A model generated the notes under the pieces. The model had not been told where the DNA came from, did no database searches, and worked only from the letters and a program-made list of their open reading frames with translations. Source: Actinomycetospora cinnamomea (lineage in GTDB: Bacteria; Actinomycetota; Actinomycetes; Mycobacteriales; Pseudonocardiaceae). From it: a stretch of 64,000 nucleotides of DNA. Shown piece by piece: positions 39,385 to 54,332 of this stretch. The position numbers were made by a program, and so were the translations under genes. The stretch is taken from contig NZ_QEKW01000001.1 in NCBI RefSeq assembly GCF_003096675.1, positions 868,001-932,000 of the forward strand, given 5' to 3'. The stretch's first letter is position 1. Each line of letters begins with the position of its first letter.

Positions 39385-40401
39385 CTAATCGGGCGGGCGG
39401 GGCTCCGGCAGGAGTGATCGATCGAGCTGACGCGGATCACGGGTCGCGTAGAGGGCCACCACCCGCGCCGCGGCCGCGGCCATCTCGTCGCGGAGCTCCG
39501 GCGGCTCGAACACCTCGACGGCCTCCGCGTACCCCAGCAGCGCGGCCCGGGCGGCGAGCAGCGAGCGGAACGGGGCGACGAGGTGCTCGCGGCCGTCGGG
39601 CGCGGTGTTCTCGGTGCGCCACGGCCCGGCGAGCACGGCGAGGGGGACGCGGCGCAGCGTCCCCGCCCACGCCGGGTCCACGAGCACCCGCACCTCGACC
39701 TCCGCGCTCGGCGCCTCCAGACGGTCCCGCAGCTCGGCCCACACCTCCGCGAGGTCCCGCTCGTCGGGCCGGCGCGCGGGCACGCCGGTGGCGGCGACCT
39801 CGCGCACCCGGCTGACCCGGTACATCTTCGGCGTCCCGCGGTGGGCGGCCACGAGGTACCAGGTGCCGGCCTTGCTGACCAGGCCGTACGGGTCGACGGT
39901 GCGCCACGTCGCCGTGGCCGCGTCCCCGGTGGCGTAGCGCAGGCGCACCCGCTCGTCGGCCACGAGCGCGGCGTCGAGGCCGGCCAGCGCGGGGAGGTCC
40001 TCGGGCGCCCGCCGCCAGCCCTGGTGCTCGACGAGCAGGCGCCGCCGCGCGCGGTCGACGCCGGGGCGCCGGGCCTCGGGCAGGGCGGCCAGCAGCTTGC
40101 GCGACGCCGAGGCGAGCGCCGGGCCCAGCACCCCGCCGTCGGCGGACGAGCCGAGCGCCACGAGGGCCCGCACCTCCTCGTCGGTCATGCCCGTGACGTC
40201 GGTGCGGTAGCCCTCGACGAGGACGACCCCGCCGCGCCGCCCGCGCTCGCAGTACACGGGCACCCCGGCCGCCGAGAGGGCCTCGACGTCGCGGTGCACG
40301 GTGCGCGTCGAGACCTCGAGCCGCCGGGCGATCTCGGGTGCGGGCAGGCGCCCGTGGGTCTGCAGGAGCAGCAGGGTGGCGAGCAGCCGGTCCGAGCGCA
40401 C
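39385..40401 (-). CDS. WYL-domain transcriptional regulator (YafY/DeoR-type HTH)
   Basis: A 338-residue regulator with an N-terminal HTH (SDRLLATLLLLQTHGRLPAPEIARRLEVSTRTVHRDVEALS, shown here in two parts: about residues 2-22 and 23-43) and a WYL ligand-binding domain (VDPYGLVSKAGTWYLVAAHR). GTG 40401 starts the HTH. It is divergent from the DinB/maleylpyruvate isomerase-like gene; the 87 bases between contain the small palindrome ACACGTGT, a possible operator. Ligand unknown. Confidence 0.85.
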   Translation of the reverse strand: MRSDRLLATLLLLQTHGRLPAPEIARRLEVSTRTVHRDVEALSAAGVPVYCERGRRGGVVLVEGYRTDVTGMTDEEVRALVALGSSADGGVLGPALASASRKLLAALPEARRPGVDRARRRLLVEHQGWRRAPEDLPALAGLDAALVADERVRLRYATGDAATATWRTVDPYGLVSKAGTWYLVAAHRGTPKMYRVSRVREVAATGVPARRPDERDLAEVWAELRDRLEAPSAEVEVRVLVDPAWAGTLRRVPLAVLAGPWRTENTAPDGREHLVAPFRSLLAARAALLGYAEAVEVFEPPELRDEMAAAAARVVALYATRDPRQLDRSLLPEPRPPD

Positions 40402-40488: not shown

Positions 40489-41112
40489 ATGACCGCTCCC
40501 GACCCCCGCCCGCTGCTGGCCCGCGCGCTCGACCAGGTCGGCACGCTCGTGGCCGACACCCCGCCCGACGCCCTCGACCGCCCCACGCCGTGCGACGGGT
40601 GGGACGTCCGCACGCTGCTGCGCCACCTCGTCGGCGTGCACCGCCGGGTCGGCCACGTCGGCACCGGCGGCCACTTCGCCGACGTCGACGCAGTGCCCGA
40701 GGTCGCCGACCACGACCTCGTCGCCGAGGTGCGCGCCGCGCGCGCCGAGCTCGAGCGGGTGTGGGGCCTCGACGGCGCCGACGACGCGGTGCTGGACCGC
40801 GAGCTGACGCTGCCCTGGGGCACCATGCCCGGCCGTCTCGCCGGGTTCGGCTACGTGCAGGAGCTCACCGTGCACGCGTGGGACCTGGCCGCGGCCACCG
40901 GCCGCACGGCCGCGCTCGACGACACGCTCGCCGCGGCGGTCGAGGAGGCGGCGCGCCGGATGGTGCCGGCGGAGACCCGCGGCGGCCCCGTGCCGTTCGG
41001 CCCGCCGGTGCCGGTGGCGCCCGACGCCGGGCCGTACGCCCGGCTGGTGGCCTGGCTGGGCCGCGACCCGGCGGCCGCCCGGACCGGCGAGCGGGCGCCC
41101 GCGCCGCGATGA
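40489..41112 (+). CDS. TIGR03086-type / maleylpyruvate isomerase N-terminal (DinB-like) protein
   Basis: A 207-residue four-helix-bundle protein. Metal-binding histidines are suggested by CDGWDVRTLLRHLVGVH and by ELTVHAWDLAAATG, both typical of the mycothiol-dependent maleylpyruvate isomerase/DinB group. The ATG at 40489 has AGGAGG eight bases upstream. It is probably controlled by the divergent WYL regulator rather than belonging to the nicotinate cluster that follows. The reaction is not assigned. Confidence 0.75.
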   Translation: MTAPDPRPLLARALDQVGTLVADTPPDALDRPTPCDGWDVRTLLRHLVGVHRRVGHVGTGGHFADVDAVPEVADHDLVAEVRAARAELERVWGLDGADDAVLDRELTLPWGTMPGRLAGFGYVQELTVHAWDLAAATGRTAALDDTLAAAVEEAARRMVPAETRGGPVPFGPPVPVAPDAGPYARLVAWLGRDPAAARTGERAPAPR

Positions 41113-41260
41113 GCCCGCTCCGTGACGTCGGCGACCCACCACCGTTCGATCCGGGCACGTACTGTCGGTGGTGGGGCGACGACGGGTGGTGCCCGGGGGA
41201 CCGTCCGCTCCGCGGTCGAGACCCTCCCCGGGCGGCACCGACGACCGGGCGAGGTGGGCC

Positions 41261-41770
41261 GTGACGAGGTCGACGAGCGGCGAGAGCACACGCACGCCTC
41301 CGCGCGGAAGGGTCAGCCCCGCCCCGCCGCCGGACCTGGTCGCCGCCCCGGGCTACGGGGCCCGCCGGCTGTACCAGGCCTACCTCGCGGCCTGGAGCCG
41401 TCACGTCGACGCCGTGCTCACCGGCCCGCAGTTCGCCGTGCTCTCGGCCATCCGCGCCTATCCCGACGCCGACCAGACGGCCCTCGCCGGTGCGGTCGCG
41501 CTGGACACGTCGACCATGGCCGACGTCTGCCGCCGCATGGAGCGCCGCGGCCTCATCACCCGCCACGCCGCGCCGCACGACGCCCGGGCGAAGGTCCTGG
41601 AGCTCACCGAGGAGGGCGCGGCGGCCCTGGCCGAGGTGTTCCGGCGGGCCCGTCGGCTCGACGAGGCGCTGCTCGAGGGCTGTCCCGCCGAGCTGCGTCC
41701 ACACCTGGCCTCCCTGTTCAACGACCTCGGGGCCCACTGGGAGGGCGTCGCCGAGCGCGACGAGCTCTGA
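41261..41770 (+). CDS. nicR: MarR-family regulator, probable NicR-type repressor of the nicotinate genes
   Basis: A 169-residue winged-helix protein: LTGPQFAVLSAIRAYPDADQTALAGAVALDTSTMADVCRRMERRGLITR, seen as helices at about residues 48-95, is the MarR DNA-binding core, followed by RAKVLELTEEGAA in the wing. GTG 41261 is chosen as the start. It is the only regulator inside the pathway cluster and lies directly upstream of nicC, as expected for NicR, the MarR-family 6-hydroxynicotinate-responsive repressor of nicC and nicX promoters in Pseudomonas putida. The role here is inferred from position and the shared element at 41863 and 53113. Confidence 0.68.
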   Translation: MTRSTSGESTRTPPRGRVSPAPPPDLVAAPGYGARRLYQAYLAAWSRHVDAVLTGPQFAVLSAIRAYPDADQTALAGAVALDTSTMADVCRRMERRGLITRHAAPHDARAKVLELTEEGAAALAEVFRRARRLDEALLEGCPAELRPHLASLFNDLGAHWEGVAERDEL

Positions 41771-41862
41771 GGGCCCGCCCGTCGGGCGAGCGCTCTCCGC
41801 CCCACGGCGCAGACACGGGGCCGTCTCTCGGTTACGGCCACATCTCGGGACCCCCGAGGGTA

Positions 41863-41893
41863 TTGCGTCCTCGGATAGTACGTGCTCGGATTG
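41863..41893 (+). promoter_or_regulatory. Shared 31-bp promoter/operator element, copy 1 (upstream of nicC)
   Basis: Starts TTGCGT, contains GGATAGTACGTG and ends CTCGGATTG; it is identical in 30 of 31 bases to the minus-strand element at 53113-53143 upstream of nicX. It can be read as a promoter (TTGCGT, 17 bases, TCGGAT). It contains two CTCGGAT direct repeats 15 bases apart and an imperfect inverted repeat AGTACGTGCT. It ends 41 bases before the nicC ATG. Probable binding site of the MarR-type NicR. Confidence 0.8.
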
Positions 41894-41934
41894 AACTCAC
41901 GCGGAAGCGAGCACGTCGCGAGGAGGTCGTCGAG

Positions 41935-43203
41935 ATGGCGAGCCAGTCGTTCGAGGTCACCGTCGTGGGGGGAGGCCTGGGCGGGCTCTGCGCGGCGCTG
42001 TCGCTGCGCCAGCGCGGCCTGCGCGTCACCGTCGTCGAGGCCGCGCCCGAGCTCGGCGAGATCGGCGCCGGCATCCAGACCGCGCCGAACGCCAGCCGCA
42101 TCCTCATCGGGTTGGGGCTGCGCCCGCAGCTCGAGGCGGTGCGCACCCAGCCCGAGGACCAGGTACGCCGCCGCTGGGCCGACGGCAGCATCATCGCCCA
42201 GCTGCCCCTCGGGCAGCGGGTGATCGACCAGTACGGCGCCCCCTACTGGCACTACCACCGCGCCGACCTGCACCGCGTCCTGCTCGACGCATGCGTCGAC
42301 CCGGACCTCCCGGGCCCGCTCGTCACGCTCCACACCGGCGCCAAGGTCACCGACCTCGACCGCACCGACCCACTGCGCCCGGTCGCGGTCGCCGAGGACG
42401 GCCGTCGCTTCACCGGCGACGTGCTCGTCGGCGCGGACGGCATCCGCTCCGCCGTGCGCGACCTCGCCGGGTTCGACGACACGCTGGTCTTCTCCGGCGA
42501 GATGGCCTACCGCGCCCTCATCCCCGGCGAGCTCATCGCCGCCGACCCGGCCACCCGCTTCCTCGTCGACCGCTACCACTCGACGATCTGGTACGGCCCG
42601 GACAAGCACCTGGTGCACTACGTCATCCGCGGCGGCGAGTACCTCAACGTCGTGGCCATCGTGCCGTGCTCCGACACGATCGCGCGCGACTGGAGCGGCC
42701 CGGCCACGCCCGAGCAGCTCGCGGCCGACTTCGCCGACTGGGACGACCGCGTGCCCGCGATGCTGGCGAAGGCCAAGCCCGAGGACGTCTCCCTGTGGGC
42801 GATGTACCGGCGCCGCCGCGACCCCGTGTGGGTCGACGGCCGGGTCGCCCTGCTCGGCGACGCCTGCCACGCCATGCTCCCCTACCAGGCCCAGGGCGCC
42901 TCGCAGTCGATGGAGGACGCCGCGGTGCTGGCCGAGGAGCTGGGCCGCGTGACCCGCGACGACATCGACGGCGCCCTCGTGCGCTACGTCGACCGGCGCG
43001 CGAAGCACGCGGGCATGGTGCAGGACGCCTCGCTGCAGAACATGTCCTTCTACCACCTGCCCGACGGCCCCGAGCAGCGCGAACGCGACGAGAAGCTGCG
43101 CCGTTTCGACGGGGAATCCGACGTGTCGTACGACTGGCTCTGGAACGGCAGCCCGTTGCACGACCCCGACACCGAGTCCATCCACTACCAGTTCGCCCGC
43201 TGA
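41935..43203 (+). CDS. nicC: FAD-dependent monooxygenase, probable 6-hydroxynicotinate 3-monooxygenase
   Basis: A 422-residue class A flavoprotein hydroxylase. FAD motifs are VTVVGGGLGGLCAALSL, the DG motif LVGADGIRSAVRDL, and GD motif VALLGDACHAMLPYQAQGA; YHRADLHRVLLDA is the conserved FAD-contact helix. By gene context it performs decarboxylative hydroxylation of 6-hydroxynicotinate to 2,5-dihydroxypyridine with NADH and O2. On sequence alone it could be called salicylate or 3-hydroxybenzoate hydroxylase. The ATG at 41935 has AGGAGG nine bases upstream. First gene of the rightward arm. Confidence 0.8.
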   Translation: MASQSFEVTVVGGGLGGLCAALSLRQRGLRVTVVEAAPELGEIGAGIQTAPNASRILIGLGLRPQLEAVRTQPEDQVRRRWADGSIIAQLPLGQRVIDQYGAPYWHYHRADLHRVLLDACVDPDLPGPLVTLHTGAKVTDLDRTDPLRPVAVAEDGRRFTGDVLVGADGIRSAVRDLAGFDDTLVFSGEMAYRALIPGELIAADPATRFLVDRYHSTIWYGPDKHLVHYVIRGGEYLNVVAIVPCSDTIARDWSGPATPEQLAADFADWDDRVPAMLAKAKPEDVSLWAMYRRRRDPVWVDGRVALLGDACHAMLPYQAQGASQSMEDAAVLAEELGRVTRDDIDGALVRYVDRRAKHAGMVQDASLQNMSFYHLPDGPEQRERDEKLRRFDGESDVSYDWLWNGSPLHDPDTESIHYQFAR

Positions 43204-43250
43204 CGCGCGGACCGAGAAGACCCCCACCCACCCGCGACGGGAGCGAACCC

Positions 43251-44654
43251 ATGCGCACCGGAGACCAGATCGTCCAGGACCTTCCCTGGCGCTGGGGCGT
43301 CCAAGGAAAGATCTTCCTCATCGGCGGCCTCGGCTACATGTTCGACGCCTGGGACGTCGCCCTCAACGGGTTCCTCACCCCGTTGGTGGGCACCGAGTTC
43401 GGGCTGACGCCGGCCCAGCGCGGCCTCGTCGCCACGGCCAACCTCATCGGCATGGCCGTCGGCGCCGTCGCCTGGGGCACCGTGGCCGACCGCATCGGCC
43501 GCAAGAAGGCCTTCAGCATCACGCTGCTGATCTTCGCGCTGTTCTCGGTGCTCGGGGCGGTCTCGCCGAACATCGAGTGGTTCCTGCTCCTGCGCTTCCT
43601 CGCCGGCGTCGGGCTCGGCGGCTGCATCCCCGTCGACTACGCCATCGTCAGCGAGTTCTCCCCCAAGCGGTCACGCGGCCGGGTGCTCGCGGCGATGGAC
43701 GGCTGGTGGCCGATCGGCGCCACGCTGGCCGGGGTCTCCGCGACACTGCTCGTCCCCGTCACCGGCAACTGGCGCTGGATGCTCGTGCTCATGATCCTGC
43801 CCGCGCTGCTGCTGTTCTGGGTTCGCCGCGGGGTGCCCGAGTCGCCGCTCTACCTCTCCCGCAAGGGCCGTGAGACCGAGGCCCGCGCCGTCATCGACGA
43901 CCTCGTCGCCCGCACCGGCGCGACCCCCGAGCCCTACGTGATCCCCGCGCCGGTCGAGGAGGACAAGCGCGGCGGCGCCTGGGCCGCCGCCGTCGACCAG
44001 CTGCGCCGCGTGTGGGCCTTCAACCCGCGGATCACCGCCGTCGCGTGGTCGCTGTTCATGTCGGTCATGCTCGTCTACTACGCCGCCCTGAGCTGGATGC
44101 CCTCGATCCTGCGCTCGCAGGGCTTCGGCCAGATCGCCGCCTTCGCCTCCACCACGCTGATGAACGCCCTGGGCATCGTCGGTGTCGCGATCTCGGTCCT
44201 CGTGGTCGACCGCTACGGCCGCAAGCGCGTCATCGCGATCTCGGGACCGCTCGCGGCGGCCACGCTGGTGGCGTTCTCGCTGCTGCTCGGTGCCCCGACG
44301 GCCGCCGTGGTCGCGATCGGCGCGTTCGGGCTCTTCGCCCTGATCGTCATCCCGGTCATGTACGCCTACGTCTCCGAGCTCTACCCGACCGAGCTGCGGG
44401 CCTCGGGCTTCGGCTGGGCCTCGTCGTCGAGCCGCGCGGTCACCGGCTTCGCCCCGCTGCTGTTCGGCAGCGTGCTCTGGCCCGTGCTCGGCCTGCCCCT
44501 GACGTTCACGCTGCTCGGGCTGCTGGTGCTCGGCGCCGTCGCCTTCATGTGGGTGGGCGCACCCGAGACCGCCGGCCGCGAGCTCGACCGGATCACCACC
44601 GACGTGCCGGACGCCTCCACCGGCACCGCCACCCCGGAGCGCGCGAGCTCCTGA
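43251..44654 (+). CDS. nicT: MFS transporter, probable nicotinate uptake permease
   Basis: A 467-residue, twelve-helix major facilitator protein of the sugar/metabolite:H+ symporter type. DRIGRKKAF after helix 2 and VDRYGRKRV after helix 8 are the repeated MFS loop motifs, and LNGFLTPLVGTEFGL is in helix 1. The ATG at 43251 follows GGGAG. Its place between nicC and the hydroxylase genes suggests import of nicotinate or 6-hydroxynicotinate. A large perfect hairpin follows the gene. Confidence 0.72.
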   Translation: MRTGDQIVQDLPWRWGVQGKIFLIGGLGYMFDAWDVALNGFLTPLVGTEFGLTPAQRGLVATANLIGMAVGAVAWGTVADRIGRKKAFSITLLIFALFSVLGAVSPNIEWFLLLRFLAGVGLGGCIPVDYAIVSEFSPKRSRGRVLAAMDGWWPIGATLAGVSATLLVPVTGNWRWMLVLMILPALLLFWVRRGVPESPLYLSRKGRETEARAVIDDLVARTGATPEPYVIPAPVEEDKRGGAWAAAVDQLRRVWAFNPRITAVAWSLFMSVMLVYYAALSWMPSILRSQGFGQIAAFASTTLMNALGIVGVAISVLVVDRYGRKRVIAISGPLAAATLVAFSLLLGAPTAAVVAIGAFGLFALIVIPVMYAYVSELYPTELRASGFGWASSSSRAVTGFAPLLFGSVLWPVLGLPLTFTLLGLLVLGAVAFMWVGAPETAGRELDRITTDVPDASTGTATPERASS

Positions 44655-44664
44655 CGCCCGCCGC

Positions 44665-44698
44665 ACGGCCGGGCCGGACACGCGTCCGGCCCGGCCGT
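44665..44698. terminator. Perfect 15-bp stem hairpin between transporter and hydroxylase genes
   Basis: Arms at 44665-44679 and 44684-44698 are exact complements around loop ACGC. It begins ten bases after the nicT stop and ends 36 bases before the hydroxylase FAD-subunit ATG. With no evident promoter between, it is likely a partial terminator or an mRNA processing/stability element within the operon. Confidence 0.7.
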
Positions 44699-44733
44699 CG
44701 CCGGATCCCCCACCCATCAGGGAGCGGAGAGAG

Positions 44734-45621
44734 ATGAAGCCCGCCGCGTTCACCTACCACCGCGCGCACGGCGTGCCGGACGCGGTCGGCCTGCTCACCG
44801 ACCTGACCGCGGCCGGCGAGGACCCGAAGCTCATCGCCGGCGGGCAGAGCCTCATGCCGATGATGACGTTCCGGCTGGCCCGTCCCTCGGCGCTCGTCGA
44901 CCTCGGGCCTCTGCGTCGGGTGCCCTCGATGACGGCGATCAGCGAGTCCGGCGGGACGCTGAGCCTCGGCGCCCTCGTCACCCACCACGCCGTGGAGACC
45001 GCCGCCCTCTCCCCCGGCTTCGCGGTGCTCGCACGCGCCATGCGCTGGGTCGGGCACCTGCCCATCCGCAGCCGCGGCACCGTCGCCGGCAGCCTCGTGC
45101 ACGGCGACGCGACCGCCGAGTGGTGCCTGCTCGCGCTGCTGCTCGACGCCGAGGTCGTCGCGGAGGGCCCGGCCGGGCGCCGCACGATCCCCGCCGGCGA
45201 GCTCTTCCACGGCTTCTACGCCACAGCCGTGGACCCCGACGAGGTCGTCGTCGAGGTGCGCTTCACCAGGCCCGCCCCGCACGCCGCCCTGACCGAGTTC
45301 GCGCGCCGCCACGGCGACTTCGCGATCGTCGACGCGGCGGTCGCGCTCGACCTCGACGAGGACGGCCGCACCAGCGGCGGGCGCGTGGTCCTCGGCGGCG
45401 TGGCGCCCGCGCCGGTCCGCGTCCCCGAGGCCGAGGAGGTGCTCGCCGCCGGGGCACCCGCCGACGACGCGCTCGCCGCCGCCGTGGCGGACGCGGCCGC
45501 CGGCGCGATCGACCCGCCCGACACCGACGACGGAGCGGGCGTCTCCGCCGCCTACCGCCGGCGCCTCACCCGCACCCTCGTCGCCGACGCCTGCCGCCAG
45601 GCGAGCGGAGCCGCCCGATGA
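44734..45621 (+). CDS. Molybdenum hydroxylase FAD-binding (medium) subunit
   Basis: A 295-residue CoxM/CutM-type subunit: KLIAGGQSLMPMMTFRLARP and TVAGSLVHGDATAEW are the two FAD-binding motifs of the xanthine dehydrogenase family. It passes electrons from the iron-sulfur subunit to the final acceptor. The ATG at 44734 follows GGAGCGGAGAG. The stop overlaps the large-subunit start (ATGA). With its two partners it should form the nicotinate 6-hydroxylase of this pathway. Confidence 0.85.
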   Translation: MKPAAFTYHRAHGVPDAVGLLTDLTAAGEDPKLIAGGQSLMPMMTFRLARPSALVDLGPLRRVPSMTAISESGGTLSLGALVTHHAVETAALSPGFAVLARAMRWVGHLPIRSRGTVAGSLVHGDATAEWCLLALLLDAEVVAEGPAGRRTIPAGELFHGFYATAVDPDEVVVEVRFTRPAPHAALTEFARRHGDFAIVDAAVALDLDEDGRTSGGRVVLGGVAPAPVRVPEAEEVLAAGAPADDALAAAVADAAAGAIDPPDTDDGAGVSAAYRRRLTRTLVADACRQASGAAR

Positions 45622-48083
45622 CCAGCACGCCCACCGTCCCCGCCGACGCCGACCCCGACCGCCCCGAGCGCGGCGACCACCCCGGCGACCACCCCGGCCA
45701 CCACCCCCCGTCCACCGGACCCCGGTTCGACGGGCACCGCGGCCGCTGGGTCGGGGCGTCGGTGCCCCGCCACGAGGACCCGCGCCTGCTCACCGGGCGC
45801 GGCCGCTTCGTCGACGACATCGCCCTGTCCGGGATGCTGCACGCCGGGTTCGTGCGCGCCACGGTCGCGCACGCCCGCCTCACCGGGATCGACCTCACCG
45901 CGACCCGCGAGGTCGAGGGCGTCGTCGCCGCCTACGACGCGGCGGATCTCGCCCTCGGCGACATCGTCGCGATCCTGGACCGGCCCGCCGAGGAGTTCAC
46001 GCCCACCGCGATGCCGATCCTCGCGAAGGACAAGGTGCGCTTCGTCGGCGAGCCGGTCGCGCTCGTCGTCGCCCGCGACCCGTACGCGGTGGAGGACGGC
46101 ATCGAGGCCGCGCAGGTGTCCTACGACGTGCTCGACGCCGTCACCGGCGAGGAGTCGGCCCTGGCCTCGGACGCGCCGCGGGTGCACGACGAGGCACCGG
46201 ACAACGTGCTGCTCGACGTCTCGATGTTCGACACCCCGGGCGTGGACGAGGCGTTCGCCGACGCCGCCGTCACCGTCGACGTCGTCACGCGCAGCGGCCG
46301 CCAGAACGCGCTGCCGCTGGAGACCCGCGGCGTCGTCGCGGCGTGGGACGCGCGCGACGACCAGCTGCACGTCGCGACCACGACGCAGGTCCCCCACCAG
46401 GTCCGCACGGTGCTCGCACGCTGTCTGGACGTCCCGGAGCGCACGGTGCGGGTGACCGTGCCGGACATGGGCGGTGGGTTCGGGCAGAAGTGCGTGGTCG
46501 GCCGCGAGGAGATCGCCGCCGCGGCCGCCGCGAAGCGGCTCGACCGGCCGGTGAAGTGGATCGAGGACCGCCGCGAGGCCCTGACCGCGGGCTTCCTCGC
46601 CCGCGAGCAGCGCTACCGCACCCGCGCCGCCTTCGACGCCGACGGGCAGATCACCGCGCTCGACGTCGACATCGTCTGCGACATGGGCGCCTACTCCTGC
46701 TACCCCTTCACCGCCGGCATCGAGCCGCTGATGGCGTCCGCGGAGATGCCCAGCGTCTACCGGGTGCCGGCCTACCGGGTCCGGGGCCGGGCGCTGACCA
46801 GCAACAAGGCGCCCACCGCGCCCTACCGCGGGGTGAGCCGCCCGCAGTACGTGGTGGCCATCGAGCGCGTCATGGAGCGCGCCGCGCGCGAGCTGGGCCT
46901 GGACCCGGTCGAGGTGCGCCGCCGCAACGTCATCACGCAGTTCCCCTACACCGGGGTCAACGGGGTCACCTACGACCCCGGGACCTACCGCGAGTCGCTC
47001 GACCTCGCCGAGGCGACGATGCGCGACGAGGGCTGGTACGAGGAGCGCGACCGCGCGGCGGCGCAGGGTCGGCACCTCGGCATCGGCTACTGCTGCTTCT
47101 CCGAGCGCACGGGCTACGGCTCCGAGGCCTTCGCGAAGCGCAGGATGACCGTCGTCCCCGGGTTCGACATCTCCGAGATCCGGATGGACACCAGCGGCGC
47201 GGTGGTCGTCACCAGCGGCACGATGAACCACGGGCAGTCGCACGAGACGACGTTCGCGCAGATCGTCGCCGACCGGCTCGGCATCGACGTCGGCCTCGTC
47301 AAGCTGCGCCAGGGCGACACCGAGCGCATCTCCTACGGCTGGGGCACGTTCGCGTCGCGGTCGGTGACGATCGGGGGCTCGGCGGTGGCGCTGGCCTCCG
47401 AGCGGCTGGGCGAGCTGCTCTGCCGCATCGCCGCGCACCTGCTGGAGACCCGCCCGGAGAACGTCGCCCTCGACGGCGACGGCGGCGTGGTGCAGCTCGA
47501 CGACCCGACCCGGCGGCTGTCGTTCACCGACATCGCCGACGTCGCCCACCTGCGCGCGCACCTGCTGCCCAAGGACGTCGACCCGACCCTCACCGCCACG
47601 GCGAGCTTCGACGTCCCCGGCGACGGGACCTTCTCCAACGCCACCCACGCCGTGGTGGTCGAGGCCGACCCGGGCACCGGGCAGGTCCGGATCCTGCGCT
47701 ACGCGTGCGTCGAGGACTGCGGGGTCGTGGTCCACCCGCAGGTCGTCGACGGGCAGTGCCGCGGCGGGATCGCCCAGGGCATCGCCGGCGCGCTGTTCGA
47801 GGAGGTCACCTACGACAGCCACGGCGAGCCGTCGGCGGCGTCGTTCATCGACTACCTCGTGCCGACCGCGTCGGAGATCCCCGACGTGTCGATCGCACAC
47901 CTCGAGACGCCGTGCGCGTTCACCGCCAACGGCGCGAAGGGCGCCGGCGAGGGCGGCACGATCGGCGCGCCGGCCGCCGTCCTCAACGCCGTCAACGACG
48001 CCCTGCGCGACACCGGCGTCGAGCTCGACTCCACGCCGATCCATCCGTGGACGGTGCTGGCCGCACTGGAGGGCACACCGTGA
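45618..48083 (+). CDS. Molybdenum hydroxylase large (Mo-binding) subunit, probable nicotinate dehydrogenase
   Basis: An 821-residue xanthine dehydrogenase-family catalytic subunit. PDMGGGFGQK and TAPYRGVSRP line the molybdopterin site, and GAKGAGEGGTIG carries the catalytic base E778. The CO dehydrogenase signature with the active-site AYRCSFR loop is absent, so it is not form I CODH. It hydroxylates an aromatic heterocycle next to the ring nitrogen; nicotinate to 6-hydroxynicotinate is inferred from nicC and nicX. The N-terminal 40 residues are a His/Pro/Asp-rich extension. ATG 45618 overlaps the upstream stop. Confidence 0.85.
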   Translation: MTSTPTVPADADPDRPERGDHPGDHPGHHPPSTGPRFDGHRGRWVGASVPRHEDPRLLTGRGRFVDDIALSGMLHAGFVRATVAHARLTGIDLTATREVEGVVAAYDAADLALGDIVAILDRPAEEFTPTAMPILAKDKVRFVGEPVALVVARDPYAVEDGIEAAQVSYDVLDAVTGEESALASDAPRVHDEAPDNVLLDVSMFDTPGVDEAFADAAVTVDVVTRSGRQNALPLETRGVVAAWDARDDQLHVATTTQVPHQVRTVLARCLDVPERTVRVTVPDMGGGFGQKCVVGREEIAAAAAAKRLDRPVKWIEDRREALTAGFLAREQRYRTRAAFDADGQITALDVDIVCDMGAYSCYPFTAGIEPLMASAEMPSVYRVPAYRVRGRALTSNKAPTAPYRGVSRPQYVVAIERVMERAARELGLDPVEVRRRNVITQFPYTGVNGVTYDPGTYRESLDLAEATMRDEGWYEERDRAAAQGRHLGIGYCCFSERTGYGSEAFAKRRMTVVPGFDISEIRMDTSGAVVVTSGTMNHGQSHETTFAQIVADRLGIDVGLVKLRQGDTERISYGWGTFASRSVTIGGSAVALASERLGELLCRIAAHLLETRPENVALDGDGGVVQLDDPTRRLSFTDIADVAHLRAHLLPKDVDPTLTATASFDVPGDGTFSNATHAVVVEADPGTGQVRILRYACVEDCGVVVHPQVVDGQCRGGIAQGIAGALFEEVTYDSHGEPSAASFIDYLVPTASEIPDVSIAHLETPCAFTANGAKGAGEGGTIGAPAAVLNAVNDALRDTGVELDSTPIHPWTVLAALEGTP

Positions 48084-48565
48084 CCGACCCCCACCTGCTG
48101 TCCCTGACCGTCAACGGCGCCGAGCACGAGGTCGTGGTCGAGCCCCGGCGCACGCTCGCCGACGTCCTGCGCCACGACCTGCGCCTCACCGGCACCCACG
48201 TCGGCTGCGAGCACGGCGTCTGCGGCGCCTGCACCGTGCTCCTCGACGACGCCCCGGTGCGCGCGTGCCTGGTGTTCGCCGTGCAGGCCGAGGGCAGCGA
48301 GGTGCGCACGGTGGAGTCGCTCGCCGGCCCCGACGGCGGGCTGTCCGATCTCCAGCAGGCGTTCACCGACCACCACGCCCTGCAGTGCGGGTTCTGCACG
48401 CCGGGGTTCCTGTTGCTCGCCGAGGGCGTGCTGGCCGAGCAGCCGGACGCCTCGCGCGAGGAGGTGCGCGAGGCGCTCTCGGCGAACCTGTGCCGCTGCA
48501 CCGGCTACCAGACCATCGTCGACGCCGTGTGCGCGACGGCTCGTGCTCGACAGGAGGCGCGATGA
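48080..48565 (+). CDS. Molybdenum hydroxylase [2Fe-2S] (small) subunit
   Basis: A 161-residue subunit with all eight cluster ligands: C43, C48, C51 and C63 for the plant-type [2Fe-2S] cluster, and C103, C106, C138 and C140 (CGFC and CRC) for the C-terminal cluster. GTG 48080 overlaps the large-subunit stop and its own stop overlaps the CoxG-like start, so all subunits are translationally coupled. It wires the molybdenum centre to the FAD subunit. Confidence 0.93.
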   Translation: MTDPHLLSLTVNGAEHEVVVEPRRTLADVLRHDLRLTGTHVGCEHGVCGACTVLLDDAPVRACLVFAVQAEGSEVRTVESLAGPDGGLSDLQQAFTDHHALQCGFCTPGFLLLAEGVLAEQPDASREEVREALSANLCRCTGYQTIVDAVCATARARQEAR

Positions 48566-49356
48566 TCCTCGACAACCACCTCGACGTCCCCGCCGACCCG
48601 GACGCCGTGTTCGCGCTGCTGGGCGACGTCGAGCGCGTCGCCGGCTGCCTGCCCGGTGCCGTGCTCGAGGGCCGTGACGGCTCCGACGGCAAGGCCTACC
48701 GCGGCCGCGTGAAGGTCAAGGTGGGGCCGATCAGCGCCGCCTACGCCGGGACGCTGCGGTTCACCGAGATCATCCCCGAGCAGCGGACGATGCGGATGTC
48801 GGCGCGCGCGTCGGACGCCCACGGCGCCGGCGACGCCGAGGCCGACGTCCTGCTGTCGGTCCTCGAGTCCGAGGGCGGCGCGCGCCTCGACCTGCGCACC
48901 GACCTGCTGATCCGCGGCAAGATCGCGCAGTTCGGCAAGGGCGCGATCACCACGGTCTCGAGCCGCCTGCTCGACCAGTTCGCCCGCAACCTCGCCGGCG
49001 AGCTCTCGAGCGCACCCGACCCCGCGAGCAACGGCACGGCGGCCGGCGGCTCGGCGGGGGATGGCACCTCCGGTGCCGGCAATACGGCTCTGCCGGCGGA
49101 TTCCACACAGCACGCCGATAGGGCCAGGAACTCCGCATCCTCGCCGAGCGCCACGCCGGCCCCCGCGCCGTCCGCCCGGTCCGCGCCCGCCGACGACGCC
49201 CTCGACGGGTTGGCGATGCTGCTACCCCCGAACGCCGGGCGCTGGGCCGCGCTCGCGGCCGTCGCCGGCGTGGGACTGTTCCAGGGCTGGCTGCTCGGCC
49301 GGCTGCAGGGCCAGAAGATGCTGATCGAGGAGCTGCGACGCCATGCCCGACGCTGA
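48562..49356 (+). CDS. CoxG-like SRPBCC protein with C-terminal membrane anchor
   Basis: A 264-residue protein. Residues 1-150 are a CoxG/SRPBCC domain (NHLDVPADPDAVFALLGDVERV, CLPGAVLEG, GKAYRGRVKVKVGPI); 150-215 is a disordered Ser/Ala/Pro linker, and near 228-248 one hydrophobic helix (WAALAAVAGVGLFQGWLLG) anchors it. CoxG proteins accompany CO dehydrogenases and are implicated in membrane association and quinone delivery. Here it would link the hydroxylase to the menaquinone pool. ATG 48562 follows AGGAGGCG. The downstream nicF gene starts inside its end. Confidence 0.85.
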   Translation: MILDNHLDVPADPDAVFALLGDVERVAGCLPGAVLEGRDGSDGKAYRGRVKVKVGPISAAYAGTLRFTEIIPEQRTMRMSARASDAHGAGDAEADVLLSVLESEGGARLDLRTDLLIRGKIAQFGKGAITTVSSRLLDQFARNLAGELSSAPDPASNGTAAGGSAGDGTSGAGNTALPADSTQHADRARNSASSPSATPAPAPSARSAPADDALDGLAMLLPPNAGRWAALAAVAGVGLFQGWLLGRLQGQKMLIEELRRHARR

Positions 49357-50014
49357 CGGTCTGCACGGCGCCGACACCGACGCCGTCCTCGCGCGCGCGG
49401 GCTTCGGCGCCGCCGTCCCCCGCGGCCCCCGCCCGGCGCTGGTCGTCGTCGACCTCACGCGCGGCTTCACCGAGCCCGCCTCCCCCTCCGGGTCGGACCT
49501 CACCGCCGAGGTGGCCGCGACGAACCGTCTCGTCGCCGCCGCACGCGCCGGCGGCGTCCCGGTGATCTGGACCGTCATCAGCTACACCCCCGCCGAGGCC
49601 GACGGCGACGCGATCGCCTGGCTCCGCAAGGCCCCGGGCATGCGCGCGCTGCGCGCGGGCAGCGACGCCGTCGCCCTCGATCCGCGCCTGCACCCGCGCG
49701 ACGAGGACCACCTGATCGTCAAGAAGGGCGCCTCGGCGTTCCACGGCTCGGCCTTGACGGCACTGCTGACCGGCCTGCACGTGGACACCGCCGTCGTCTG
49801 CGGCGCCACGACGTCCGGGTGCGTGCGCGCGACGGCCGTCGACGCCGTGCAGTCCGGCTTCGACACGCTCGTCGTCGCCGACGCCTGCGGCGACCGCGCC
49901 CGGGGCCCGCACGACGCCGCGCTGTACGACCTGCAGGCGAAGTACGCCGACGTCGTCGCCCTGGACGACGCGGTGCCCTACCTCGACGACCCCTTCCGGA
50001 AGGCCGACCGGTGA
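49343..50014 (+). CDS. nicF: Isochorismatase-fold amidase, probable maleamate amidohydrolase
   Basis: A 223-residue cysteine hydrolase. The Asp-Lys-Cys triad is D37 (LVVVDLTRGF), K127 or K128 (LIVKKGASAF) and C160 (CGATTSGCVRATA). NicF splits maleamate to maleate and ammonia; N-carbamoylsarcosine amidase is the nearest alternative on sequence, but the neighbours fit NicF. The ATG at 49343 overlaps the CoxG-like gene by 14 bases, and its stop overlaps the nicD start (GTGA). Confidence 0.86.
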   Translation: MPDADGLHGADTDAVLARAGFGAAVPRGPRPALVVVDLTRGFTEPASPSGSDLTAEVAATNRLVAAARAGGVPVIWTVISYTPAEADGDAIAWLRKAPGMRALRAGSDAVALDPRLHPRDEDHLIVKKGASAFHGSALTALLTGLHVDTAVVCGATTSGCVRATAVDAVQSGFDTLVVADACGDRARGPHDAALYDLQAKYADVVALDDAVPYLDDPFRKADR

Positions 50015-50865
50015 CCGAACCCGCACAGCAGCGCGTCCTGACCCAGCCGGCGCTGGCCGACCTCGCCGACGTCCCCGCGACCAGCCGGTGGGTGCGCTCC
50101 CGGGGGCCGCGCCTGCACCTGCTGGACTACGGCCCGCCCGGACGCCCGCCGATGCTGGTGGTCCCGGGGATCACCAGCCCCGCGATCACGATGGACTTCG
50201 TGGTGCGCGGGCTGACCGACCTCGTGCACCCGGTCGTCCTCGACGTCCGCGGCCGCGGGCTGTCGGACGGTGGGGACGCCTACGACCTCGCCACCTACGC
50301 CGGTGACGTCGAGGCCGTCGTCCGGGGACTGCGCCTGGAGGAGCCGATCCTGCTCGGGCACTCGATGGGCGCGCGCATCGTGGCGCAGGTGGCCGCCGAT
50401 CGTCGGGTGCCCGTCGGCGGCACCGTCCTCGTCGACCCGCCGATGAGCGGCCCCGGACGCGGCCCGTACCCGACCTCGCTCGAGGCCTTCCTCGGCCAGC
50501 TCGACCAGGCCCGTCGCGGCACCGACGCCGACGAGGTGGCCGCGTCCTGGCCCCGCTGGCCCCGTCGCGAGCAGGAGCTGCGCGCCCGCTGGCTGGGCTC
50601 CTGCTCCCGCGACGCGATCGTCGCGACGCACGCCGGCTTCGAGTCCGAGGACTTCTTCGCCGCCTGGCCGTCGGTCCCCGCTCCGACCGTGCTGATCCAC
50701 GGCGGGGACAGCCCGGTGGTCACCGCCGCAGGCGCGGAGGAGGCGGCCAAGGCCAACCCGGCGGCCTCGGTCGTCGAGGTCCCCGGCACCGGCCACATGG
50801 TCTTCTGGGACGACCCGGCGGCCGCCCTCGGGGCCACCCGCGACGTCCTGCGCACGATGTCCTGA
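50011..50865 (+). CDS. nicD: Alpha/beta hydrolase, probable N-formylmaleamate deformylase
   Basis: A 284-residue alpha/beta hydrolase that should release formate from N-formylmaleamate. The triad is S118 (LLGHSMGA), D142 (VLVDPPMSG) and H262 (GTGHMVFWDD). The spacings S to D (24) and S to H (144) equal those I recall for P. putida NicD (S101, D125, H245). GTG 50011 overlaps the nicF stop. It is the last gene of the rightward arm and is followed by a 20-bp-stem hairpin. Confidence 0.87.
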   Translation: MTEPAQQRVLTQPALADLADVPATSRWVRSRGPRLHLLDYGPPGRPPMLVVPGITSPAITMDFVVRGLTDLVHPVVLDVRGRGLSDGGDAYDLATYAGDVEAVVRGLRLEEPILLGHSMGARIVAQVAADRRVPVGGTVLVDPPMSGPGRGPYPTSLEAFLGQLDQARRGTDADEVAASWPRWPRREQELRARWLGSCSRDAIVATHAGFESEDFFAAWPSVPAPTVLIHGGDSPVVTAAGAEEAAKANPAASVVEVPGTGHMVFWDDPAAALGATRDVLRTMS

Positions 50866-50885
50866 CGCCGCGACGAGCGTGACCG

Positions 50886-50940
50886 CTCCGGGTGCTCCGC
50901 CGACCTCACCACACACAAGGGGTCGGAGGAGCACCGGGAG
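50886..50940. terminator. Large hairpin at the end of the rightward nicotinate arm
   Basis: Arms of 20 bases at 50886-50905 and 50921-50940 match at 18 positions around a 15-base A/C-rich loop. It starts 21 bases after the nicD stop and is the probable terminator of the nicC-to-nicD transcript. Confidence 0.75.
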
Positions 50941-50982
50941 TGATCTCCTCGACGGCCGGCGTGCTCGCGCACGGAGCGGGCG

Positions 50983-51141
50983 TCAGGGCCCCGACACGGT
51001 CTCCGCGGTCTTGTTCTTCCTCTTGTCCATCTCGTTCTGGACCGCCCCCCAGGCGAGGACGGCGGCGACAGGAGCCATCGCCAGCGCGACGGCCTTGACG
51101 CCGGGACCGAGCGCTCTCAGGGCAAGACCAAGGATGACCAT
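50983..51141 (-). CDS. Small membrane protein between the convergent nicotinate operons
   Basis: A 52-residue protein: one long hydrophobic helix (about residues 2-36, including VKAVALAMAPVAAVLAWGAV) and a charged tail with NEMDKRKNKT. The ATG at 51141 has GAGGAG four bases upstream, better than many starts here. It is transcribed in the same direction as nicX-nicE but after their terminator. No family recognised; it may be a neighbour without a pathway role. Confidence 0.6.
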   Translation of the reverse strand: MVILGLALRALGPGVKAVALAMAPVAAVLAWGAVQNEMDKRKNKTAETVSGP

Positions 51142-51221
51142 GACGCTCCTCGGGTCGTGGGGTCCCGAGGGTACCGTCGCGACGAGAGGCATCGCTCGGT
51201 GTCGTCGGCGCGCAAGCGAGG

Positions 51222-51254
51222 GAGCGCCCGCCCCGGAACCCGGAGCGGGCGCTC
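51222..51254. terminator. Hairpin at the end of the leftward nicXE operon
   Basis: GAGCGCCCGC (51222-51231) pairs exactly with GCGGGCGCTC (51245-51254) around a 13-base loop, 15 bases beyond the nicE stop in the direction of transcription. Confidence 0.7.
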
Positions 51255-51268
51255 GTGCGTGGACGGGG

Positions 51269-52051
51269 TCAGGCCGCGCGCGTGACGGCACCCGGGTCGG
51301 CGACGGCCCCGCTGAGCAGGTGCCCCGCGCCGGGGACCCGGGTCTCGAGGCCCAGCTCGGAGAGGATCCGGAACGTCGTCGCGGTCGCCGCCGACAGCAC
51401 CGGCATGCCGACCTCGTCCTGCACCGCCTCGATCGAGGGCAACGAGGGCATCTGCACGCACGCCGACAGCACGAGCGCGTCGGCGCTGCTCAGGTCCAGC
51501 CGGCGGTGGTGCTCCCGCAGGTCGGCCGGGTCGAGCCGCGCGACCGCCAGGTTGTCCGGCACCTCGAGCGACAGGGCGTCGACGACCTCCACCCCGGCGT
51601 CCTCGAGGTACGCGACGACGGCCTGCGTGAGCGGCTTCATGTACGGCGTCACGATCGCCACCCGACGCGCCCGCAGCGCCGCGATCCCGGAGAGCAGCGC
51701 GCCCGCCGACGAGATCACCGGCGCCTCGGCGCCCTCGGCGCGCAGGGCGCGGGTGATGTCGTCCTCGGCGGTGCAGTGGAACCCCGGCCCTTGCGCCATG
51801 ATCGCGACGAGGCACGCCGTCGCCACCACGTCCGGGCGGGCGTCGGCGAGCTCGGTCGCGGCGCGCGCCGCCTGCGCGTTCATGGCCTGCAGCTGCTCGG
51901 GGGTCACGTGCTGCATGCGCGCGCGGGCGGCGTGGAAGACGAACCGGTCGTCGGGGACCACCTGCTCGCGCGCGGCGAGCATGCGCGGGAGCTCGGTCTC
52001 CATCGTCAGGTTGGAGCTCGGGACGATCATCCCGATGTGGTGGTCCCTCAT
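51269..52051 (-). CDS. nicE: Maleate cis-trans isomerase
   Basis: A 260-residue Asp/Glu-racemase-fold enzyme that converts maleate to fumarate. The two catalytic cysteines are C80 (ATACLVAIM) and C198 (LSACVQMPSL), spaced as in known maleate isomerases; GMIVPSSNLTMETELPRM is the N-terminal family signature. The ATG overlaps the nicX stop (ATGA), so the two are coupled. Arylmalonate decarboxylases share the fold but have a single active cysteine. Confidence 0.88.
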   Translation of the reverse strand: MRDHHIGMIVPSSNLTMETELPRMLAAREQVVPDDRFVFHAARARMQHVTPEQLQAMNAQAARAATELADARPDVVATACLVAIMAQGPGFHCTAEDDITRALRAEGAEAPVISSAGALLSGIAALRARRVAIVTPYMKPLTQAVVAYLEDAGVEVVDALSLEVPDNLAVARLDPADLREHHRRLDLSSADALVLSACVQMPSLPSIEAVQDEVGMPVLSAATATTFRILSELGLETRVPGAGHLLSGAVADPGAVTRAA

Positions 52052-53094
52052 CGCTTCACGGTAGGACGCATCTCGGGGATCGTCAGCTCGCCCTTGTCGA
52101 CGATCAGCTCGTCGTCGAGGTACAGCGAGTTCCCGCGCATCGGGATGTCGAAGTGGCAGGGCGTGTCGTTCGGGCCGCCCAGCTCGTTGTTCGGCCCGAT
52201 CGAGAACATGACGTTGCCGTAGAAGCTGCGCAGCTCCATGCCCATGCCGCCGGGGAACTGGGTCAGCCCGTGCCAGTGGGCGCGCTCGTCGAGGCCCCAG
52301 CCGACATGGCTCATGCCGTAGCCGCGCGGGTCGTCGAAGCTCTGGATGTACGACGAGAGCAGGTCCGCGTCGAGGCTGGACTGCCCGGGCACACCGCGGA
52401 TGTCGCGGATGAAGCCCTGCTCGATCGTCAGCGTCACCGGCGTCTGCACGTAGGTGTTGAACGGCAGCAGCACGTCGCCCGGGGAGAGCACGATCTGCCC
52501 GTCGACGCCGTCGTCGGCGCCGCCGGTGAACACGAACGCGGCCGGCCAGTGGTCCCAGCGGCCCGGGGTGTCGGTGTAGCCGTACTCGCTCATCGTCGGG
52601 TAGACGCCGAGCCGGTAGGTGACGTCGGTGCCCGCGGGGCTCGTGATGCGCATCGACCGCGCCTTGGCCAGCAGGTCGGCGCCGTACTCGACGCGCTCGC
52701 GCAGCTCGGTGGTCGGCATGAGGCGGGCCAGCAGCTCGGGCGGCTCGACGGCGGTGAGGATGCGGGTGCCGGCGTCCTGGATCGCGAACTGCTCAGGGCT
52801 GAAGAGCAGGAACGTGGAGTCGACGACCATGTCGACCGCCTTGAGCGCCTCGACGGCCAGCGGGTTCTGCCCGAGGCCGGAGTCGCCGACCGCCCACGCC
52901 CCGCTCGCGCTCGCCGGGGCGGGCAGGCGCATGTGGTAGCCCGCGGCGCCCAGCTTCTGGATCGCCCAGAGGAACGCGTCGGCGTACTCGCCGCGTTCGG
53001 CGCCGCGGGTGAGCACCGCGACGGTCTCGCCCTCGCGCACACCGGAGAGCGTCAGCTGCTGCAGGCAGATGTCGTTGAACAGGTTCTGGTCCAT
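52048..53094 (-). CDS. nicX: 2,5-dihydroxypyridine 5,6-dioxygenase
   Basis: A 348-residue Fe(II) ring-cleaving dioxygenase converting 2,5-dihydroxypyridine to N-formylmaleamate. The likely iron ligands are H263 (GMSHVGWG), H314 and D316 (PCHFDIPMRG), matching in order and near-identical spacing H265, H318 and D320 reported for P. putida NicX (350 residues). The fold is shared with M29 aminopeptidases, so automatic pipelines may call it leucyl aminopeptidase. The ATG at 53094 has GGAGG eight bases upstream. First gene of the leftward arm. Confidence 0.9.
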   Translation of the reverse strand: MDQNLFNDICLQQLTLSGVREGETVAVLTRGAERGEYADAFLWAIQKLGAAGYHMRLPAPASASGAWAVGDSGLGQNPLAVEALKAVDMVVDSTFLLFSPEQFAIQDAGTRILTAVEPPELLARLMPTTELRERVEYGADLLAKARSMRITSPAGTDVTYRLGVYPTMSEYGYTDTPGRWDHWPAAFVFTGGADDGVDGQIVLSPGDVLLPFNTYVQTPVTLTIEQGFIRDIRGVPGQSSLDADLLSSYIQSFDDPRGYGMSHVGWGLDERAHWHGLTQFPGGMGMELRSFYGNVMFSIGPNNELGGPNDTPCHFDIPMRGNSLYLDDELIVDKGELTIPEMRPTVKR

Positions 53095-53112
53095 CGCGAC
53101 CACCTCCGCCCT

Positions 53113-53143
53113 CAATCCGAGCACGTACTATCCGAGCACGCAA
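53113..53143 (-). promoter_or_regulatory. Shared 31-bp promoter/operator element, copy 2 (upstream of nicX)
   Basis: Reads on the minus strand toward nicX, beginning TTGCGT and ending CTCGGATTG. It matches the nicC element (41863-41893) at 30 of 31 positions, including a 24-base stretch without mismatch. This copy contains two full CGTGCTCGGAT direct repeats with a 15-base period. It ends 18 bases before the nicX ATG. Confidence 0.82.
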
Positions 53144-53228
53144 GGAGTGCAACAGGATCGTCACCGGCATGACGCCGCACGGCCCAGCCCGCGCGTCCGT
53201 GTCACCGGCGCGCCCCTACGCTGCCCCG

Positions 53229-54332
53229 ATGGCCCCGGAGGACGAACGCATCGCCCTGTTCCTCGACTACGAGAACCTCGCGATCGGGGCGCGCGACGGT
53301 CTCGGGGTCTCGCCGTTCGACTTCGGACCCGTCGCCGACGCGCTCGCCGAGCGCGGGCGGGTGGTGACCCGCCGGGCCTACGCGGACTGGTCCGCGTTCG
53401 ACGAGGACCGCCGCCTGCTCGCCCGCGCCCAGGTCGAGCTGATCGAGATCCCGCAGCGCCTCGGGGGATCCCGCAAGAACGCCGCGGACATCAAGATGGC
53501 CGTCGACGCCATCGAGCTGGCCTACGAGCGCGGGTTCGTCACCACGTTCGCCATCGGCACCGGCGACTCCGACTTCACGCCGCTGATGCACAAGCTGCGG
53601 GAGATGGACAAGCGCGTCATCGGCATCGGCGTGCAGTCCTCGACCTCGAAGCTGCTGCCCGCGGCGTGCGACGAGTTCCTGTTCTACGACCGCCTGCCCG
53701 GGGTGGAGGGCCGCCCGGTGCCGGCCCGGCCGTCGCGGCGCCGACCGACCACTCCGGCAGCCGCCCCCGCCCCCGAGCCGGAGCCGGTCGAGCCGGTCGA
53801 GCCGGTCGAGCCCCCCACGCAGGAGGAGGCCGAGTCCGACGGGCCCGACCCCGACCTCGCCACGGTCGTCACCAGCACCCTCGCCGGGCTCGCGCGGGCC
53901 ACCGACGGCCCGGTCCGCGCCTCGACGCTCAAGCGCGCGATCCTGCGCAAGGACCCCACGTTCGACGAGGGCGACCAGGGGTTCCGCGGCTTCGGCGAGC
54001 TCCTGCGCCACCTCGAGGGACGCGGGGTGCTGGCTCTCACGCCGGGCACCGCCGCCGGCGACCCCGAGGTGGCGTTCCCCGAGGACACCTCGGCCGAGGA
54101 CGAGGCGTTCGCCCTCTTCGCCACCACCGTGCGCGACCTGGAGGACTCCGGCGGCGGACCGCCCCAGCTCTCCGGGCTCAAGGACCAGATGCGCAAGCGC
54201 GACCCGGGGTTCTCGGAGAAGCGCTACGGGTTCAACGGCTTCCTGTCCTTCGCCCGCGCCGCGCGTGCCCGCGACCTCGTCACGATGGAGTGGGACGAGG
54301 GCCGCGGCGACTACCAGCTGTCGGTGTACTGA
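53229..54332 (+). CDS. NYN-domain ribonuclease-like protein with two LOTUS/OST-HTH domains
   Basis: A 367-residue protein. Residues 8-155 are a NYN (PIN-like) domain: IALFLDYENLAIGAR has the first acidic residue, NAADIKMAVDAIELAYE the second, and IGTGDSDFTPLMHKLRE the third; this fold cuts RNA with metal ions. A Pro/Glu linker containing three EPV repeats follows, then two winged-helix OST-HTH repeats (about 215-285 and 298-365), each ending in a GF-GF segment. OST-HTH domains bind RNA. The ATG at 53229 begins the NYN domain. Confidence 0.85.
   Translation: MAPEDERIALFLDYENLAIGARDGLGVSPFDFGPVADALAERGRVVTRRAYADWSAFDEDRRLLARAQVELIEIPQRLGGSRKNAADIKMAVDAIELAYERGFVTTFAIGTGDSDFTPLMHKLREMDKRVIGIGVQSSTSKLLPAACDEFLFYDRLPGVEGRPVPARPSRRRPTTPAAAPAPEPEPVEPVEPVEPPTQEEAESDGPDPDLATVVTSTLAGLARATDGPVRASTLKRAILRKDPTFDEGDQGFRGFGELLRHLEGRGVLALTPGTAAGDPEVAFPEDTSAEDEAFALFATTVRDLEDSGGGPPQLSGLKDQMRKRDPGFSEKRYGFNGFLSFARAARARDLVTMEWDEGRGDYQLSVY

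Follow-up and report, generated by a model that had tools for sequence, protein, structure and literature searches.

A candidate MarR operator shared by the nicotinate degradation operons of Actinomycetospora cinnamomea and other Pseudonocardiaceae

The window analyzed here, 64,000 nucleotides of the Actinomycetospora cinnamomea genome (contig NZ_QEKW01000001.1), carries a cluster of nicotinate degradation (nic) genes in which a 31-bp element lies ahead of nicC and, inverted, ahead of nicX. We propose that this element is very probably the operator of the MarR protein encoded beside the cluster at 41261-41770, that it comprises two overlapping units of the type recognized by the Streptomyces repressor PcaV, and that through it both nic operons are repressed until a hydroxy-acid of the pathway releases the protein. 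Its identity as an operator is well supported by comparison across genomes, which brings out a shared site, its restriction to nic and marR genes in its own genome, its link with marR, and a 15-bp pitch between units. The two-site coincidence is thereby recast as a predicted regulon of three sites, with an operator that is defined and that recurs across several genera. It would also offer, for a sensor of vitamin B3 catabolism, a short stretch of DNA that can be tested.

The original prediction described two 31-bp copies 11 kb apart, each directed into one arm of the pathway, and both points are confirmed: the nicC copy (TTGCGTCCTCGGATAGTACGTGCTCGGATTG) and the nicX copy (TTGCGTGCTCGGATAGTACGTGCTCGGATTG) are identical at 30 of 31 bases (Table 1). 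Searching with TTGCGTSCTCGGATAGTACGTGCTCGGATTG at up to three mismatches gave two matches in the window, as compared to none in 100 shuffles; over the whole 5.97-Mb own genome (assembly 97% complete in 50 contigs) the only two matches were again the nic elements, with none for the reversed-pattern control. The prediction had called for such a genome-wide search at up to four mismatches; at three, it returned no copies at unrelated genes. With the single unit TNCGTGYTCGGATWR at up to one mismatch, the four own-genome matches are both units of both elements, and the looser core RNTACGTGYYCGGAW has exactly three exact matches, namely both elements and positions 41149-41163 on the minus strand (reversed controls, none for either pattern). 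The claim that the element occurs nowhere else therefore stands for copies within three mismatches, but a weaker third copy upstream of marR had been overlooked. The proposal that nicC and nicX share a regulatory site, one associated with the neighboring marR, is borne out, with no copies at other own-genome genes at the stringency tried.

Comparison within the genus and family yields a phylogenetic footprint of the element. Matches to GCTCGGATNNNNCGTGCTCGGAT at two mismatches occur in 12 of 18 genomes of the genus, as a pair on one contig 10.6-11.7 kb apart in 10 of them and on different contigs in the other two; viral contigs scanned for the same pattern gave none. Across the family, CTCGGATNNTACGTGCTCGGAT at two mismatches matches in 38 of 297 genomes, four of which (G027, G030, G277, and G294), with no nic gene beside the single inspected site, were dropped as probable chance; G010, with sites present but no nicX in a 59% complete assembly, was left out of the count. 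A nicX homolog was found in 62 of the 297 genomes, and two with broken or partial nicX (G021 and G210) were left out. When the family-wide scan was combined with locus-by-locus inspection, at a criterion of up to two mismatches, the element was found before nicX and/or nicC in 45 of the 60 checkable genomes. A named genome collection scanned for CGGATWNTACGTGYTCGGAT gave 59 stretches, 56 in genera that we take to be members of the Pseudonocardiaceae and three in unrelated taxa, taken as chance. Site placement tracks transcription-unit layout across genera: where nicX, nicE, and nicC form a single run, the site stands before nicX only, and where nicC heads a separate unit, it has its own site. 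A literature search, with most subscription papers outside its reach, turned up no description of this operator and none of how nicotinate genes are regulated in the Pseudonocardiaceae.

Some loci carry additional copies. In some Amycolatopsis, the full double element occurs twice in a row between marR and nicX; in L106 (9879-9979) the two are 75 bp apart, and in L095, L098, and L101 a second copy with one or two mismatches lies 40 bp upstream. In the Actinomycetospora metagenome-assembled genome bin.147, a full double element with TTGCGT (L118, 7619-7644, minus strand) lies ahead of a gene of enoyl-CoA hydratase type that belongs to a series of CoA-type catabolic genes (named by eye), on a contig with no nic gene or marR; this could be a further regulon member or a binning error.

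The site is linked to marR among the 61 loci examined (the window plus L088-L147; a few genomes give two loci), 44 of which have a marR ortholog. Wherever that ortholog reaches 60% identity, as it does in 39 loci, a site with no more than two mismatches is present upstream of nicX, nicC, or, in L119 only, the transporter gene; none of the five loci with a marR of 51-57% identity has one. Of the other 17 loci, where the stretch fetched contains no marR, seven have the site (L091, L092, L100, L105, L107, and L130 before nicX; L118 elsewhere) and 10 do not. In 25 loci from other genera, marR alone among regulator genes is conserved with the cluster; when the 136 open reading frames (ORFs) of the window from 31 to 64 kb were compared with these loci, no ORF wholly outside 40865-53172 matched more than one. 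A WYL-type regulator gene (39388-40401, by eye) lies beside the cluster in 8 of 11 own-genus loci, but its protein, searched for directly, was found in none of the 25 other-genus loci, and it is therefore not the common reader of the site.

The third site is a single core unit, inverted with respect to marR, whose core match lies ∼100 bp ahead of the start assigned to marR here. Of the 37 testable loci, 32 have an exact core unit in this orientation no more than 134 bp ahead of the aligned start of marR. The marR-side site has no TTGCGT, and in the seven loci displayed the neighboring unit upstream of the core is missing or degraded, least so in L088 and L090. This arrangement suggests that marR may be autoregulated through the third site.

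Sixty-five distinct sites share the near-invariant pattern TTGCGTN-YYCGGATAR-TACGTGYTCGGAT; the 26 core columns of this alignment were partly fixed by the selection pattern, whereas the leading TT (conserved at 100% and 98%) was not. The original prediction had seen the CTCGGAT direct repeat at 15-base spacing as an odd site for a MarR protein. The repeat is there, but the downstream unit (unit 2) is laid out like the PcaV palindrome, and the simplest reading is that two overlapping PcaV-like pseudo-palindromes stand 15 bp apart; the repeat would then arise because two dimer sites are stacked with ATAGT in common. In gapless comparison with the PcaV palindrome, unit 2 has 12 of 20 identities in the window and 15 in both L132 and L139; self-complementarity is 18 of 20 positions for the L132 unit and 10 of 20 for that of the window. 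A stronger argument for stacking than the window score is that the 15-bp pitch recurs with different sequence in another family. There, all four loci with a 46-57% MarR beside nicX (L212, L214, L215, and L217, the last three from one genus) have a runner-up unit exactly 15 bp from the best unit, with one on each side in L212; unit scores of at least 13, as found in these four loci, occur at 5e-4 of positions in shuffled sequence. We put less weight on the simpler reading of a regulator that binds CTCGGAT twice as a direct repeat: single core units occur at marR and in diverged clusters, and the PcaV palindrome can be aligned to the units. Also in another family, locus L211 holds a 60% MarR homolog with the palindrome TTAATACGTGTTCGGATTAA at 1339-1358, ∼150 bp upstream of the aligned gene start; this 3.4-kb locus has no nic gene.

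Each element might instead hold one dimer, on the downstream unit only, with the upstream CTCGGAT serving the promoter or another protein, or the MarR protein might activate from the site. The downstream unit always scores higher than the upstream one, stands alone before nicC or nicX in L109, L139, and L146, and is the only unit, in core form, at marR. Yet the upstream unit is found at exactly 15 bp in all five scored Pseudonocardiaceae nic promoters with a close marR (window nicC, window nicX, L132, L093, and L096), and the same pitch recurs in the other family; as for activation, the site overlaps the presumed promoter, and repression is therefore favored. We consider this alternative unlikely, though it deserves to be taken seriously. 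Extending the two-unit reading, we tentatively suggest, as a scheme almost as apt to hold as to fail, that nicotinate-linked actinobacterial MarR repressors use a stacked operator of overlapping PcaV-type palindromes at a fixed 15-bp pitch, with successive dimers on nearly opposite helix faces sharing a flank, and with the number of units setting repression strength (strong at the nic operons, weak at marR). There would be two units per stack in most of the Pseudonocardiaceae studied and possibly three in L212. Such stacking, if true, would be a simple way to tune repression.

The MarR protein has a MarR winged-helix domain (PF01047, 2.3e-11, above cut-off), and its closest solved relative is PcaV of Streptomyces coelicolor (4fht, 3e-20). 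PcaV represses the pca genes, responds to protocatechuate, and has an operator Oi probe containing a 20-bp palindrome, ATACTCAGTGCCCTGACTAT (PMC6882365). That palindrome has the same length and layout as the nic unit, whereas the MarR gene here and its sites sit at nicotinate genes. PcaV pocket residues L6, G11, R15, W25, and A39 are kept and eight other pocket residues are changed; among the orthologs, G11, R15, W25, and A39 are kept wherever there is a residue at that position and L6 in all but one, while H9, H12, H21, S35, Y38, and N114 become A, Y (one F), Y, G, F, and D (PcaV numbering). BpsR, the Bordetella MarR repressor of nicotinate genes, is released by 6-hydroxynicotinate, which its Tyr15, His23, Arg26, and His32 contact; its DNA site is called unclear in the same report (PMC6837509). 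BpsR is the more distant relative (1.9e-9 versus 3e-20 for PcaV), but its Arg26 aligns with Arg35 of the present protein, the PcaV pocket Arg position. The pocket fits a predicted ligand that is a related aromatic hydroxy-acid, bound in a changed pocket. SCO3205, another MarR protein of S. coelicolor whose operators were found by ortholog footprinting (two sites, with the 12-bp pseudo-palindromic consensus TTnAAnnnTCAA; PMC3737563), has a different operator sequence and different target genes.

We infer binding, repression, ligand, promoter positions, and two dimers per site in the following scheme. Each copy would consist of two overlapping 20-bp PcaV-type pseudo-palindromes (near ATANTNCGTGYTCGGATTAT), with centers 15 bp apart, over the operon promoter. 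Without inducer, MarR dimers on both units would cover the sequence from TTGCGT through TCGGAT and block RNA polymerase, repressing the nicC operon (nicC, transporter, dehydrogenase, nicF, and nicD) as well as nicX-nicE, while the single core unit upstream of marR would provide autoregulation. The inducer would be a hydroxylated aromatic acid from the pathway, with 6-hydroxynicotinate the likeliest; by binding between the subunits, it would free the DNA. In Pseudomonas putida, the MarR repressor NicR controls the nicC and nicX operons (PMC10269826), and the original prediction had suggested that the same logic may hold here. The predicted sites do lie at both operons, but the correspondence is inexact: the dehydrogenase genes share the nicC operon, whereas nicAB is under NicS in P. 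putida. The circuit as predicted thus resembles NicR/BpsR control; in sequence it is closest to PcaV. What sets it apart is its operator architecture, together with dehydrogenase genes that lie behind the same site, which suggests one repressor for the whole pathway, including those genes, without a separate NicS-like regulator in the cluster.

Several observations weigh against this reading. Fifteen of the 60 checkable nicX-bearing genomes have no site within two mismatches; five of these (L108, L109, L110, L111, and L146) have a 51-57% marR and the other ten have no marR in the fetched stretch. In six (L108-L111, L139, and L146), nicC or nicX is preceded instead by one related core unit or by a pair spaced differently, and a similar unit was seen in L140 and L144. 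The pitch in L108, L110, and L111, where MarR is diverged, is 21 bp with the second unit downstream, not 15 bp. An exact marR-side core was not found in 5 of the 37 testable loci (L119, L132, L133, L136, and L142), L119 having a one-base variant, and the copy in L118 fronts an enoyl-CoA hydratase gene rather than a nic gene. The 12 of 20 identities to the PcaV operator are not rare, as at least 21 of the 127,962 20-mers in the window reach 12 and six more score 13, and the dyad score of the family alignment, 0.63, is not above column shuffles (95% point 0.66). Three of the four BpsR contacts to 6-hydroxynicotinate are not kept (they align with Pro24, Tyr32, and Tyr41), leaving only the Arg. 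Finally, a second MarR homolog in the own genome, away from the nic cluster (G000:C25:17528-17950; L219), could share the site.

This last homolog, 56% identical over 141 residues, bears on the idea that the operator is read by another regulator, either that paralog or a distant one. In its favor, the site is present at seven of the 17 loci where no marR falls within the stretch fetched, though the gene may lie farther out. However, no regulator but marR is conserved alongside the cluster across the 25 other-genus loci, no such unit lies upstream of the paralog (best 10 of 20), and loci with a diverged marR have a changed site; we judge a different reader to be improbable. Helix 4 has LDTST in the 39 close orthologs and LDRST, as in PcaV, in the five diverged ones, and the half-sites are TCCG or TCAG with diverged MarR as opposed to mostly TACG with close orthologs, a possible specificity switch seen in few independent lineages.

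A little less probable still is that the element is only a conserved promoter (-35 TTGCGT, 17-bp spacer, -10 TCGGAT), perhaps for an alternative sigma factor, with no repressor site. TTGCGT is conserved and correctly spaced from TCGGAT, its TT was not selected for, and in L108-L111 TTGACT or TTGATT stands 17-18 bp ahead of TCGGAT (counted by eye); the -35/-10 reading of the nic elements is a plausible prediction. Against a promoter alone stand a spacer as conserved as the hexamers (in columns partly fixed by the selection pattern), a marR-side site that is inverted and without TTGCGT, and a site distribution that tracks marR. Chance repetition, with zero matches in shuffles and reversed controls, and dispersed repetitive DNA, given only two own-genome copies, a fixed place before nic genes in several genera, and similarity that is lost outside the element, are already refuted and scarcely credible.

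Table 1. Coordinates of the putative regulatory sites and of the neighboring genes in the window
Feature	Positions	Strand	Basis
Third site: single core unit ahead of marR, in the opposite orientation	41146..41165	-	Core 41150-41161(-) = TACGTGCCCGGA; one of three exact own-genome RNTACGTGYYCGGAW matches
marR, putative repressor gene; start position uncertain (another ORF start at 41168)	41261..41770	+	Pfam MarR 2.3e-11; closest solved structure PcaV 3e-20
Unit 1 (upstream, 20 bp) at nicC, 5-bp overlap with unit 2	41860..41879	+	Highest second-unit score (13/20) up to 60 bp from unit 2, at an upstream offset of exactly 15 bp
Double operator/promoter element, nicC operon (putative)	41863..41893	+	30/31 identity to second copy; two own-genome matches within three mismatches
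Possible -35 TTGCGT, nicC operon	41863..41868	+	TT 100% and 98% in 65 distinct sites, outside selection pattern; promoter role presumed
Unit 2 (downstream, 20 bp, PcaV-type pseudo-palindrome) at nicC	41875..41894	+	12/20 identities to PcaV operator palindrome; self-dyad 10/20
Possible -10 TCGGAT, 17-bp spacer, nicC operon	41886..41891	+	Presumed from spacing; see L108-L111
nicC, FAD monooxygenase	41935..43203	+	Homology, Pfam, solved-structure matches
MFS aromatic-acid transporter	43251..44654	+	Homology, Pfam
coxM, coxL, coxS-type genes, presumed nicotinate dehydrogenase	44734..48565	+	Homology, Pfam; substrate presumed from context
coxG-type gene	48562..49356	+	Pfam COXG
nicF-type isochorismatase-family amidase	49343..50014	+	Pfam, structure match
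nicD-type alpha/beta hydrolase	50011..50865	+	Pfam
nicE, maleate isomerase	51269..52051	-	4fq7, 3.9e-74
nicX, 2,5-dihydroxypyridine 5,6-dioxygenase	52048..53094	-	7cn3, 1.2e-88
Unit 2 (downstream, 20 bp) at nicX	53112..53131	-	Comparison with PcaV operator; unit scan
Double operator/promoter element, nicX-nicE (putative)	53113..53143	-	30/31 identity to nicC copy; own-genome scan
Unit 1 (upstream, 20 bp) at nicX	53127..53146	-	Top second unit, exactly 15 bp upstream, 12/20

In the layout of the cluster, marR is followed by plus-strand nicC, the MFS transporter gene, the CoxM/L/S/G-type genes, nicF, and nicD, with nicX-nicE convergent on the minus strand. The nicC product is closer to a solved decarboxylative hydroxylase acting on vanillate (2.3e-77) than to the solved 6-hydroxynicotinate 3-monooxygenase (1.9e-49), and the solved 4-hydroxybenzoate decarboxylative hydroxylase is likewise nearer; the name nicC therefore rests partly on context, from which the substrate is presumed. 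A divergent NYN-nuclease-type gene (53229-54332, by eye) begins ∼90 bp past the nicX site. It has the same position in most own-genus loci and in none of the other-genus loci displayed, and it might be under the nicX-side site.

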